DNA of 64,000 nt from Mucilaginibacter flavus. Lineage in GTDB: Bacteria; Bacteroidota; Bacteroidia; Sphingobacteriales; Sphingobacteriaceae. The stretch lies in contig NZ_JAUFPS010000024.1 of NCBI RefSeq assembly GCF_030409315.1, positions 9,607 through 73,606 of the forward strand, written 5' to 3'. Both the position numbers and the translations under genes were made by a program. Below, piece after piece: positions 49,250-53,430 of this stretch. The stretch's first letter is position 1. Every line of letters starts with the position of its first letter. Below the pieces are notes generated by a model, which was not told the origin of the DNA, searched no databases, and was given only the letters and a program-made list of their open reading frames with translations.

Positions 49250-50158
49250 TTAAATAACGGAGCAAATTAACTCTGCCAGGCTATTCACCTCCACAAAATC
49301 ATCATCGATATGTTGCATGTTAACATGCGAATCGGTGCAAATCAACTTTTTAACGTACCCGCAGTTTTTAAGTTTGTTGATACCATCGTTCACAAACAAC
49401 CCATGGGTGGTAATTACATAAATATCCCCGGCACCGGCATCTTTATAAGTTTTAGCGGCATTGATAATACTGCCACCAGAGCGGATCATATCGTCATAAA
49501 TAACTACCGTTTTCCCGGCCACATCGGCATTAATGGCGCTCACCTCGGTATGGTCGCCTTTTAAACGGCGTTTAAGAATAAAGGCCGCGTTTACGCCCAT
49601 ATCATTAGCTAAGGACTCTACCCATTTTGCACGACCAGCATCGGTACTGGCCATTACAAAATTATCGCCGCCATATTTAAGCGCCGCGTTAATCACAATA
49701 TCCTTGCAATAAACGTGCACAGGGTATAAATCGTGTTCAAAATAGTATTGAATACCCTCAGAATGCAAATCAAACAACAACACCTTATTACCCCGGTTTG
49801 ATTTTGGGATAGATGACAATAACCTTGCCCGTGTTTTGGCGGTTACAATTTCGCCGCTCAGCACAGCCCGCTCCATGGTTGAATAACCAAAATACGGAAT
49901 CACCAAGGTTAACGAGTTTGCCCCATAACTTACCAGCGATGATGCCAGGTCGTATAGCTCAAGCGTAGCCTGGTCTGTAACCGTCCCCCCTATCAGTACC
50001 ACATCCCGGTTTTCTATGGACGACAGGATGCGCTGGTAACGCTCGCCATCGGTAAAATTACTTACAGAGAGTTGTCCTTTTTCAAACGTACCGCAGGCCA
50101 TCACCTTTTCGGCCAGGTATTCATAATCTTTTATAGCAAACAGCAGTTTTTTGGTCAT
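49250..50158 (-). CDS. prs: Ribose-phosphate pyrophosphokinase, divergent NAD-salvage-linked type
   Basis: 302 residues from the ATG at 50158 (307 from 50173, which overlaps nadV by 11 bp). Prs-like folds are present: FTDGERYQRI, DLHSEGIQYYFEHDLYP and a PRPP-binding loop VVIYDDMIRSGGSI. The canonical loop is DDMIDTGGT; here D is R and both T are S, so this is a divergent paralog and not the housekeeping enzyme. It should form PRPP from ribose 5-phosphate and ATP for NadV, encoded four bases upstream. Confidence 0.85.
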   Translation of the reverse strand: MTKKLLFAIKDYEYLAEKVMACGTFEKGQLSVSNFTDGERYQRILSSIENRDVVLIGGTVTDQATLELYDLASSLVSYGANSLTLVIPYFGYSTMERAVLSGEIVTAKTRARLLSSIPKSNRGNKVLLFDLHSEGIQYYFEHDLYPVHVYCKDIVINAALKYGGDNFVMASTDAGRAKWVESLANDMGVNAAFILKRRLKGDHTEVSAINADVAGKTVVIYDDMIRSGGSIINAAKTYKDAGAGDIYVITTHGLFVNDGINKLKNCGYVKKLICTDSHVNMQHIDDDFVEVNSLAELICSVI

Positions 50159-50162
50159 GGTA

Positions 50163-51581
50163 TCAGTTGGCATTTACATTGGCTTTCACCTGCTCAAAAC
50201 TAAGGGTATTTATTAAATTACCATTATCAAAAACAGTTTGCAGCAAGTCGGTTATTTCTGGATCTTCATCCTGGTTAATTGTTTTATAAGCGCCGTTCAC
50301 CCTCACCAACTTTAAACGGCCGCCCTTGCTCTTTTTAAAACTTTGGGTAATATTGCCATCGGCATCCATTTCTGTAGGGCTTTTTTCAACCCTAACCTCG
50401 GTACCATTAATAATAGCACTGCTGCACTTTAAAGCGAATTTTTGTGTATCGCGGTCAACTTTTTGCAATAATGCGCCGCCCATGCCCAGTACCAGGTTTT
50501 CGGCGCTGATTAGGTTTTCCTTTAGTGCTTCGTAAATATTACCTATCTCGGCATAGTTTACGCCATCGCCCTGTATCACCCTTACCTGTGGCGGCAAAAC
50601 TTTGTAACCCTTTTCATTAACGGTGAAGCCAAACTTATCAAACAGTATCTCAAATATTTTCAACAAGGTAGCAATCGGGTCGCCGCTATCCGGGCGGATC
50701 ACCAGCGTACCATCGCGTTGCAGGATCTGGTCGCGCAGGTCGGTTCCCCAATATTCGCTGCAGGCTTTAAAAATGTTAAAACTATCAGATACGCAGGCGA
50801 TGGTGCCGGTAGAAAACGCTTTAAGTACATGTTCAAAAACCTTTTCTTCGCCCTCCCTGCCCAACAAAGTACAAATACTATGCTCTGTAGCGGGGATGCT
50901 TAAACCGTAAACCCGTTGTGCATCATAATAGTCGATAGCCATTTTTGAGCCAGCCAGGTTATCGCTGCCATTGAAATTAAGCAGGTGCGCCGCGCCACCA
51001 ATTTTAGCGCTCTCCACACTGCTTACACCCCTAAAACCAAAATCGTTCAGCACAAAATCTATCCCGGCTTCTGTACCTGGGGTAGCAGTTTCCGCGTAGT
51101 ACCGTGTTACTACTTTCCTGATCTGGTTACTTACCGTAGCCACTGTGCAGGGGTACCAAACCTGCATTAACAGGGTTTCTAAAAAATTGGTTAACCAGTA
51201 ACATTCAGGGTCGGTGTTTTCAATGGTCATTAATACATTTCCGGTTGGCACCGCGGTACCTTCGACTATTGCTTTGATAATTACGGGTAACCTGCCATCG
51301 TATTTATCAATAATGTATTGAAACTTGCTTTTATCAAACACATCATCGCGCCCAAACACCTGCTGTAAAAAGCCATCGGCTTCGTCCAAATCCTGCTGGG
51401 TAAATGCCTGCCCTTGCAGGTATTCCTTTAGAAAATACTGTAAACCAAAAAATATAGTTTCGTTAAACATACCGCCCCGGCTTTCCAGGTAGCTGTAAAT
51501 TTGGGTGGTACCGGGGTAGTAAAATTTATGGTGAGCGTATTTATAGGCATCTGCCAGTAAAATTAAATTTTCGCGTTTCAT
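50163..51581 (-). CDS. nadV: Nicotinamide phosphoribosyltransferase (NAMPT/NadV)
   Basis: 472 residues. NAMPT motifs: DAYKYAHHKFYYPGTTQIYSYLESRGG, DFGFRGVSSVESA, the catalytic-His segment PATEHSICTLLG, VIRPDSGDP and VRVIQGDGVNY / LGMGGALLQK (phosphate-binding). It condenses nicotinamide with PRPP to give NMN, bypassing deamidation. It lies four bp downstream of nadM-nudix, and prs begins within or just after its 3' end, so substrate supply, NMN formation and adenylation are encoded together. Confidence 0.92.
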   Translation of the reverse strand: MKRENLILLADAYKYAHHKFYYPGTTQIYSYLESRGGMFNETIFFGLQYFLKEYLQGQAFTQQDLDEADGFLQQVFGRDDVFDKSKFQYIIDKYDGRLPVIIKAIVEGTAVPTGNVLMTIENTDPECYWLTNFLETLLMQVWYPCTVATVSNQIRKVVTRYYAETATPGTEAGIDFVLNDFGFRGVSSVESAKIGGAAHLLNFNGSDNLAGSKMAIDYYDAQRVYGLSIPATEHSICTLLGREGEEKVFEHVLKAFSTGTIACVSDSFNIFKACSEYWGTDLRDQILQRDGTLVIRPDSGDPIATLLKIFEILFDKFGFTVNEKGYKVLPPQVRVIQGDGVNYAEIGNIYEALKENLISAENLVLGMGGALLQKVDRDTQKFALKCSSAIINGTEVRVEKSPTEMDADGNITQSFKKSKGGRLKLVRVNGAYKTINQDEDPEITDLLQTVFDNGNLINTLSFEQVKANVNAN

Positions 51582-51585
51582 GGTA

Positions 51586-52482
51586 TTATTTATTTAGGTA
51601 TTTACCAATTATCAGTTTCAGCATTTTAATGTGTTCGTGGTTAACCAGTTCCTGGTCAATCATGTTTTGCAGCTCGTTTAACTTAAACCAGGCTACATCA
51701 ACAATATCATCGCTGGCTGTAGGTTGGCCAGAGATATGATCGCAGCTGAATAAAAGCGTGATGATCTTATCGGCCTCGTTACGATAGCGCCAGTCATTTA
51801 CCCGGTGCGATGTTTCGTAGGTCATCTCCCCTACTTCTACCTCGCCACATTCTTCGCCTAACTCACGCAAGGCTGCGGCTTCATAACTCTCATCCTCCGG
51901 ATCGGCAAAGCCGCCTATAAAACGCCATTTAGGGCTATTTGCTTTTTTACCCAGCAACAATTCGGTTTTGTTGTTTCTAAACATCGCCACGTCAACCGTT
52001 GGGTACACTTTGGTATACTGGTTGTAGTAAGCGTATAAAATACCGGCCCTGAAATCTTTTGAATCAAAAACCAATTCGGCATATTGCTTGCGCAACTCGG
52101 TAGCATTGTAATCGCCGTGTGCCGGTAACTCCACGGTAGTGAAATGACCTGTATAGTACGGAATAAAACTATCCCTGCTCCCAAACAAGGTAAAGCTGCC
52201 ACCGGGGAAAACGCTTTTTAGCAAGCTATCCAAACTATCAGACCATACCTTATCGCTCGGATGGTCGCTCACCGGCAATACTATCACCTCGGGATAATCT
52301 TTTTTGATCATCTTTTCGCGGGTATGATAATCATACGGGTTTTTACGGCTTCCCATTATCGGGCTTACGCCCAGCAATATGATGAGCTTGGCATGCTCCT
52401 TACTTACGGTATCAATCAACTGCTTATGCCCTTCGTGCAGGTACGGGGTTTGGAAACGGGCAATAATTACGGCTATTTTCAT
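51586..52482 (-). CDS. nadM: Bifunctional NMN adenylyltransferase / Nudix hydrolase
   Basis: 298 residues from the ATG at 52482 (MKIAVIIARFQTPYLHEGH); the TTG at 52506 lies in the operator and is rejected. The N-terminal half is a nucleotidyltransferase of the NadM type with LHEGH (HxGH) and SRKNPYDYHTREKM (ISxxxxR region). The C-terminal half is a Nudix domain with GGFADPEDES...ALRELGEECG, resembling the ADP-ribose pyrophosphatase half of Synechocystis/Francisella NadM-Nudix. It converts NMN to NAD and probably hydrolyses ADP-ribose. Two palindromes sit in its promoter. Confidence 0.9.
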   Translation of the reverse strand: MKIAVIIARFQTPYLHEGHKQLIDTVSKEHAKLIILLGVSPIMGSRKNPYDYHTREKMIKKDYPEVIVLPVSDHPSDKVWSDSLDSLLKSVFPGGSFTLFGSRDSFIPYYTGHFTTVELPAHGDYNATELRKQYAELVFDSKDFRAGILYAYYNQYTKVYPTVDVAMFRNNKTELLLGKKANSPKWRFIGGFADPEDESYEAAALRELGEECGEVEVGEMTYETSHRVNDWRYRNEADKIITLLFSCDHISGQPTASDDIVDVAWFKLNELQNMIDQELVNHEHIKMLKLIIGKYLNK

Positions 52483-52488
52483 ATAATT

Positions 52489-52505
52489 TGCGTTAATTAT
52501 ACGCA
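52489..52505. promoter_or_regulatory. NrtR-type operator 1 upstream of nadM
   Basis: TGCGTTAATTATACGCA, a 17-bp palindrome of the form TGCGT-N7-ACGCA. It starts seven bases upstream of the nadM ATG, at the predicted transcription start, so binding would block initiation. Confidence 0.75.
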
Positions 52506-52533
52506 ATATAAATATGCGTTTTAAATACGCAAA
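52503..52533 (-). promoter_or_regulatory. Candidate promoter of nadM-nadV-prs
   Basis: On the minus strand TTTG (52530-52533) and TATATTGC (52503-52510) are separated by exactly 19 bp. The -33 is consensus; the -7 matches only TAnnTT of TAnnTTTG. Operator 2 fills the spacer and shares its outer bases with the -33. Confidence 0.5.
52515..52531. promoter_or_regulatory. NrtR-type operator 2 upstream of nadM
   Basis: TGCGTTTTAAATACGCA, again TGCGT-N7-ACGCA, with AATT on the distal flank. It lies 26 bp from operator 1. The outer bases 52483-52493 and 52527-52537 (ATAATTTGCGT / ACGCAAATTAT) also complement each other, making one 55-bp dyad. Confidence 0.75.
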
Positions 52534-52639
52534 TTATTTTTGAAAATATTTTATGAAAAATTGTGCTTTATACACATTGAACTCAACTGCAGGTTAGTTA
52601 ATAAAGGTTGATTATAAGGAGAATTGACATGGTTCATTT

Positions 52640-52683
52640 GCGTGATCGACCAGCAAGCGGGAAACGCCAATAGGCGTATCTAC
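52640..52683. repeat. Degenerate half-copy of the 43796 repeat
   Basis: GCGTGATCGACCAGCAAGCG then GGAAACGCC...GCGTATCTAC corresponds to GCGTGGTTGATTTGCACGCG followed by GGAGACGC...GCGTCTCTAC at 43860-43905. It lies just past the nrtR stop codon. Confidence 0.5.
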
Positions 52684-52689
52684 AAAAAA

Positions 52690-53376
52690 TTAAACTTCGA
52701 AGTTGATACCCTCTTTTTGGAGTTGGAAGTATTTTTGGAGGTTGAACCGAAAAAGATTGCCAGGCCTGCCGGCACCTTCAAGTACCTGCTTTTCTGTTGT
52801 TTCTTCTAAAAAACCAAATTTGCTGATCTTCTTTTTAAAGTTACGCCGGTCTATATCCCTATCCAAAACCGCCATATAAAGTTTTTCCAATTCAGAAAAA
52901 GGGAATCGCTCTTCCAGTAACTCAAAGCCTACCGGCTGGTATAGCATTTTGCTTTTAAGCCGGTCATGCGCGGCGGTTATGATGATTTGGTGATCAAAAG
53001 CCAACTGCGGTATTTTTTTTATGTTGAACCAGGAAACTTCGGCAGCGTCGGTATCAGCCTTTATCTCAAAAACATCCGGTTTCACTAAACCATAATACGT
53101 AATAGAGATAACTCTGTTACGCGGATCGCGCCCTGGTTTGCCAAAGCTGTACAACTGCTCCAGGTAATTTATGCTGATGCCTGTTTCCTCCTTGAGTTCC
53201 CGCTGCACGGCATCTTCCAATGATTCATCGTTACCTACCAAGCCACCCGGTAACGCCCAGCTATCTTTAAATGGCTGTATGTTGCGTTTAATGAGCAACA
53301 CAGATAAACCCTCTTTTGAAGTATATCCAAAAACAACGGCATCAACGGCAACTTTAATATCCTGATTGGTGGGCAT
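52690..53376 (-). CDS. nrtR: NrtR: Nudix-related transcriptional regulator of NAD metabolism
   Basis: 228 residues: N-terminal Nudix-like domain (about 1-145; WALPGGLVGNDESLEDAVQRELKEETGI) and C-terminal winged-helix domain (DRRNFKKKISKFGFLEETTEKQVLEGAGRPGNLFRF), the RNFxKK-type DNA-binding signature of NrtR. Family members repress NAD genes and respond to ADP-ribose or NAD-related nucleotides. The Nudix box here retains Glu residues (RELKEETG), so catalytic competence cannot be excluded. It is upstream of, and co-directional with, nadM. Its own promoter overlaps an operator, indicating autoregulation. Confidence 0.9.
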   Translation of the reverse strand: MPTNQDIKVAVDAVVFGYTSKEGLSVLLIKRNIQPFKDSWALPGGLVGNDESLEDAVQRELKEETGISINYLEQLYSFGKPGRDPRNRVISITYYGLVKPDVFEIKADTDAAEVSWFNIKKIPQLAFDHQIIITAAHDRLKSKMLYQPVGFELLEERFPFSELEKLYMAVLDRDIDRRNFKKKISKFGFLEETTEKQVLEGAGRPGNLFRFNLQKYFQLQKEGINFEV

Positions 53377-53380
53377 GTTG

Positions 53381-53413
53381 CAAAGTTATTAATTTGCGGA
53401 AAATTCACGCAAA
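53381..53413 (-). promoter_or_regulatory. Predicted promoter of nrtR
   Basis: Minus-strand TTTG (53410-53413) and TAACTTTG (53381-53388), 21-bp spacer: a full match to TTTG/TAnnTTTG. The -7 box ends five bases before the ATG (53376), so the transcript is predicted to be leaderless or nearly so. Confidence 0.65.
53395..53411. promoter_or_regulatory. NrtR-type operator 3 in the nrtR promoter
   Basis: TGCGGAAAATTCACGCA, the third member of the TGCGK-N7-ACGCA set. The extended form 53391-53415 has perfect 8-bp arms (AATTTGCG / CGCAAATT). It lies between and overlaps the -33 and spacer of the nrtR promoter. Confidence 0.78.
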
Positions 53414-53430
53414 TTATAGATGGAGATACA

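Follow-up and report, generated by a model that had tools for sequence, protein, structure and literature searches.

Three matching palindromes in the 64-kb Mucilaginibacter window (the whole stretch of DNA analyzed here) are, with a probability of about 0.85, operators of the adjoining protein NrtR, which as a homodimer would repress nadM-nadV-prs and be released from DNA by ADP-ribose. Comparative evidence supports the sites and their conservation, the way they track both the NrtR clade and NAD salvage genes, and their overlap with predicted promoters, while binding by NrtR, repression and ADP-ribose as the effector are what we infer. An NrtR regulon for nicotinamide salvage had been proposed in a preliminary description of this DNA; motif conservation and the way the motif follows NAD genes make this reading well supported, and the kind of system is ordinary and already known.

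The preliminary description reported two palindromes before nadM and one before nrtR, and all three were found again in the sequence, on the minus strand. Operator 1 of nadM has its core, TGCGTTAATTATACGCA, at 52489-52505 (TTTG/CAAA flanks 52487-52507), operator 2 has the core TGCGTTTTAAATACGCA at 52515-52531 (flanks to 52513-52533) and the operator of nrtR has the core TGCGGAAAATTCACGCA at 53395-53411 (flanks to 53393-53413). They are the only exact matches to TGCGK-N7-ACGCA in the window. The claim that this motif occurs only at NAD promoters holds at that scale and not strictly genome-wide, as two further bare cores with mixed spacers fit it (C38:78410 and C85:20817). The 6.96-Mb genome contains 41 copies of the bare palindrome TGCG-N9-CGCA, and the presence of three palindromes inside 917 bp corresponds to a Poisson P of ~3e-8, which is indicative only because it was computed post hoc. 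With TTT/AAA flanks the three palindromes are the top AT-spacer matches of the genome: the nrtR operator at 53.4 kb is the sole perfect match to TTTGCGK-N7-MCGCAAA and both nadM operators are one mismatch away. Other one-mismatch places mostly have GC-rich spacers, and several come from a dispersed TTTGCGTCTCCC.. repeat. Repeats resembling TTTGCGTCTCCC(G/A)CATGCAAA are present in many copies in this genome (e.g. L088, L089, L091 and L092).

The genes downstream of the paired operators, all on the minus strand, are predicted to encode a route from nicotinamide to NAD. NadV converts nicotinamide and PRPP to NMN, NadM converts NMN to NAD, and Prs supplies the PRPP. The predicted bifunctional NMN adenylyltransferase/Nudix hydrolase nadM-Nudix (51586-52482) has a NUDIX domain (2.3e-16) and matches the NCBIfam PRK05379 bifunctional models below their curated cut-offs. 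The predicted nicotinamide phosphoribosyltransferase nadV (50163-51581) matches NAMPT_N (2.6e-31) and NAPRTase (2.5e-46), and PRK09198 above its cut-off (1.1e-171). The prs-like ribose-phosphate pyrophosphokinase gene (49250-50173) overlaps the end of nadV, and its product matches TIGR01251 above cut-off (1.3e-58).

Between the two groups of sites lies nrtR (52690-53376, minus strand), encoding a 228-aa Nudix and winged-helix regulator. An NrtR-type Nudix-HTH protein beside the sites had been claimed before, and the Pfam matches agree, with NUDIX (4.7e-21) and NrtR_WHD (8.1e-21) above cut-off along with AraR_C (1.2e-13). Solved structures of relatives align over nearly the full length; matches in the PDB include AraR (5bs6, E 3.6e-45) and SoNrtR (3gz5, E 4e-29). 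The protein scores 140 bits against the NCBIfam NtrR equivalog NF050029, for which the cut-off is 400. We also considered an identity as an AraR/XylR sugar regulator and rejected it, given the intact Nudix box, the RDPR sequence and the adjoining NAD genes. In an alignment compared with the SoNrtR contacts of PMC4666351, Arg41 and Arg98, which contact ADP-ribose, are retained, Asn43 is changed to Ile, the phosphate-binding Lys76 is changed to a catalytic Glu, and Tyr10 and Phe15 fall outside the aligned region. Five other NrtR-like proteins are encoded in the same genome at E <= 1e-20.

Close NrtR homologs fall into orthologs (from ~50% identity upward) and paralogs (40-48%), and the loci of both were scanned for palindromes with every hexamer arm and spacers of 3 to 15. 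TTGCGT-N7-ACGCAA is the commonest palindrome in both ortholog groups, the genus and other genera, and in the latter TTGTGT-N7-ACACAA is likewise near the top. The same TTGCGT arm with spacers of 3-6 or 8-12 scores zero. The form TGCGK-N7-ACGCA given earlier is refined here to TTTGYGT-N7-ACRCAAA, in which the half-site accepts C or T as its second base. Counted by species that are phylogenetically non-independent, [AT]TGYGT-N7-ACRCA[AT] is present at 41/45 ortholog loci of the genus and 29/34 of other genera, with ~0.1 expected from shuffled sequence, and at none of the 16 NrtR-like paralog loci. In two of the four exceptions in the genus (L002 and L032) nadM lies at another place in the genome and carries the site there; one complete genus locus (L152) and five ortholog loci of other genera lack a site in the sequence examined. 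At the paralog loci (L016-L030) the commonest palindrome is TAGTGT-N9-ACACTA (7/16), which probably serves a branch of sugar regulators as operator.

A second set of loci was selected by NadM alone, so that neither NrtR nor the motif influenced the choice, and its scan additionally allowed TGCGG arms as found in the nrtR site. Here a site precedes nadM in all 32 loci that have an upstream region, and none is found in 71 kb comprising nadM and the DNA downstream of it. Among the members of the set are Fulvivirga, an uncultured Cytophagales bacterium and a Cyclobacteriaceae bacterium. Conservation upstream of orthologs was the check that the preliminary description had suggested, and its outcome favors the regulon: the motif is kept at every one of these nadM genes and at most NrtR-ortholog loci, and is missing from the paralog loci. 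Operator 1 is kept at nadM in related species and operator 2 across the genus and in Fulvivirga; 40 of 45 distinct nadM upstream regions carry two operators in tandem.

The sites also persist where gene order differs. In two species with an unlinked nrtR (L117 and L118) the motif remains at nadM, in trans, and in two Mucilaginibacter relatives with nrtR and nadV-prs (L153 and L154) no intact nadM is found at the locus and the operators are kept before nadV. L153 retains a short remnant match to nadM. The motif also precedes a different prs-nadV operon whose products share only 23-31% (prs) and 33-46% (nadV) identity with those of the window, an argument that the site goes with the regulator and not with the enzyme genes. 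Among 150 genomes of the genus, nrtR is present in 49, nadM in 43 and both in 42 (hypergeometric P 1e-28, uncorrected for shared ancestry). The single genus genome with nadM and without nrtR (G206) is 61% complete and is not usable as a negative control, so the unlinked nadM loci and the NadM-selected loci were used in its place.

Promoters of Bacteroidetes combine a -33 TTTG with a -7 TAnnTTTG, and in Flavobacterium transcription starts 4-5 nt past the -7 box (PMC6847099). As the preliminary description had noticed, the operator arm supplies the TTTG of the -33 box at both promoters; positions read from the sequence place both on the minus strand. The predicted nadM promoter has its TTTG at 52533-52530, in the outer arm of operator 2, followed by N19 and the predicted -7 box TATATTGC at 52510-52503 (TTTG-N19-TATATTG(C)). 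An overlap absent from the earlier account is that of operator 1 with this -7 box and with the predicted transcription start. Likewise absent from it is that the box lacks one T of the usual TATATTTG, as it also does in L043; most relatives have TTTG-N19-TATATTTG, in which the TTTG of each tandem operator doubles as a promoter element. Read literally, TATATTGC at 52503-52510 also fits TAnnTTGY, a box known as motif SM5 and ascribed to an alternative sigma factor in Flavobacterium psychrophilum (PMC9723704). Tandem operators at nadM repeat every 27 bp, the same distance as from one promoter TTTG to the next. In other genera an in-register TAnnTTTG is found at the gene-facing arm of 44/63 sites and at the opposite arm of 6/63 (sign test 39:1). 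Across genera the predicted -7 box, through its TTTG, is the more widely shared operator overlap, and the putative -33 overlap arises with the second, upstream operator.

At nrtR the predicted promoter consists of TTTG at 53413-53410 on the minus strand, supplied by the operator arm, followed by N21 and the -7 box TAACTTTG at 53388-53381, 4 nt before the ATG. A TAnnTTTG box ends 3-5 nt ahead of the nrtR ATG at 44/45 genus loci (53374-53388 in the window), from which a leaderless nrtR mRNA is predicted. Within the genus an nrtR-proximal site is found in five species only, that of the window and those of L002, L031, L032 and L034; the remaining species have promoter-like sequence before nrtR and no operator, and several other genera bear nrtR-proximal sites of their own. 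This patchy distribution suggests repeated gain or loss of autoregulation.

We found no further member of the regulon among the places inspected. TTGYGT-N7-ACRCAW has 13 forward matches in the genome and the reversed pattern has one; the matches inspected outside nadM adjoin genes without an evident NAD role, and extra TTGCGT-N7-ACGCAA sites in single relatives (L109, L114, L115 and L119) lie beside unrelated genes, so no additional member is claimed. TTGTGT-N7-ACACAA palindromes also stand between genes elsewhere in this genome (L096, L097 and L102) and may belong to another NrtR-like paralog.

Together, these data suggest the following mechanism. An NrtR homodimer would read two GYGT half-sites 7 bp apart through its two winged helices. 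The Bacteroides AraR dimer binds GTGT-N7-ACAC through the helix residues Asp178, Lys179, Arg180, Asn181 and Lys184 (PMC4666351), and since DRRNFKKK occupies this contact site in NrtR, the same contacts could be made, with Arg in place of Lys179, and an identical 7-bp spacing would follow. At nadM two dimers 26 bp apart would extend over both promoter elements (-33 and -7) as well as the predicted start, and at nrtR a single dimer would cover the -33 element. Bound NrtR would block RNA polymerase and repress nadM-nadV-prs, and with it the conversion of nicotinamide and PRPP via NMN to NAD, and in the window species it would also repress nrtR. ADP-ribose from NAD breakdown would then bind the Nudix domain, NrtR would leave the DNA and salvage would be switched on, the inducer being assigned by analogy with characterized NrtRs.

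That the palindromes are operators of another protein, such as one of the five NrtR-like paralogs or an unrelated dimeric regulator, is unlikely. The number of paralogs in the genome, the GTGT-N7-ACAC specificity of the related AraR (PMC4666351) and the TTGTGT-N7-ACACAA palindromes elsewhere would allow it, yet the paralog loci lack the motif and have a commonest palindrome with a 9-bp spacer. Moreover, motif and NrtR clade occur together across families, with two distantly similar NAD operons, and several genera have self-sites before nrtR. Still less credible, and close to negligible, is that the palindromes are no operators at all, being chance-symmetrical AT-rich promoter sequence or a dispersed repeat. 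The TTTG arms do double as promoter elements and dispersed repeats do match the motif at one mismatch, but conservation extends to the right-hand ACGCAA arm, which no promoter element requires, the spacer is fixed at 7, and the motif is missing from paralog loci of the same clade. The repeat look-alikes, for their part, have a GC-rich spacer and different arms.

That bound NrtR instead activates transcription, or represses it in response to NAD or another nucleotide, is the more serious of these alternatives and still rather improbable. NdnR of Corynebacterium responds to NAD, which strengthens its binding (PMC4666351, PMC6800001), and two of the SoNrtR ADP-ribose contacts differ in the window protein. 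Against this, the operators lie over the -7 box and predicted start, as fits repression, Arg41 and Arg98 are retained, and the NrtRs of Shewanella, Synechocystis, M. smegmatis and S. suis have ADP-ribose as their effector. Release of a repressing NrtR by ADP-ribose remains the reading we prefer.

The Nudix domain itself suggests an additional role. The Nudix box GLVGNDESLEDAVQRELKEETGI is intact and the full signature is present, and RExxEE is found in 66/66 orthologs and 0/17 paralogs examined. Characterized NrtRs have an impaired signature and are inactive (PMC4666351, PMC6800001 and PMC12735969), and restoring the signature of S. suis NrtR is reported to have restored catalysis (PMC12735969). 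With its catalytic residues intact the window NrtR may also hydrolyze its inducer, and it is plausible from these residues that the clade hydrolyzes ADP-ribose. Tentatively, and at slightly under even odds, we consider the clade to be both repressor and ADP-ribose pyrophosphatase, in which ADP-ribose binding would release the DNA and hydrolysis, yielding AMP and ribose-5-phosphate (for PRPP), would reset the switch; such a regulator would destroy its own inducer.

For Mucilaginibacter and its relatives, in which experiments on gene regulation are few, the analysis provides an operator motif of NAD control that has been tested by sequence comparison, and it lets the NAD regulon be read from genomes. 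It names an NrtR clade that is unusual in still resembling a working enzyme and allows a direct test of whether becoming a regulator requires a Nudix sensor to give up its enzyme activity. An operator arm whose TTTG serves as the -33 or -7 TTTG gives a simple, testable picture of repression at a Bacteroidetes promoter. Motif, promoter geometry and intact enzyme residues are the parts worth bench study.

Among known systems, AraR (BT0354) of Bacteroides is the closest solved structure (5bs6) and shares the N7 geometry, tandem operators at a target promoter and a near-identical recognition helix (DKRNFRK versus DRRNFKK). It differs in responding to arabinose, controlling sugar genes and having a degenerate Nudix box (PMC4666351), and in having RDPG where NrtR has RDPR, the Arg98 of SoNrtR that contacts ADP-ribose. 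NdnR of C. glutamicum is likewise an NrtR-family regulator of NAD genes, whereas PMC4666351 and PMC6800001 describe it as NAD-responsive and controlling de novo genes. With NuhA-type ADP-ribose Nudix hydrolases the window protein shares the intact GX5EX7REUXEEXGU signature; NuhA is described as an active ADP-ribose pyrophosphatase in PMC12735969, in a passage that presents it as an enzyme and mentions no regulatory role. The regulons of Shewanella SoNrtR, Synechocystis, MsNrtR and S. suis are alike in placing a Nudix and winged-helix protein beside NAD genes, in palindromic operators with a 7-bp spacer (GTTTTCGA-N7-TCGAAAAC for MsNrtR, PMC6800001) and, in some, in autoregulation. The Mucilaginibacter system differs from them in its GYGT half-site (TTTTCGA there), its intact catalytic Nudix box, its nadM-nadV-prs salvage genes in place of nadABC or pncB/pnuC, and its operators, which appear to be built into the TTTG/TAnnTTTG promoters.
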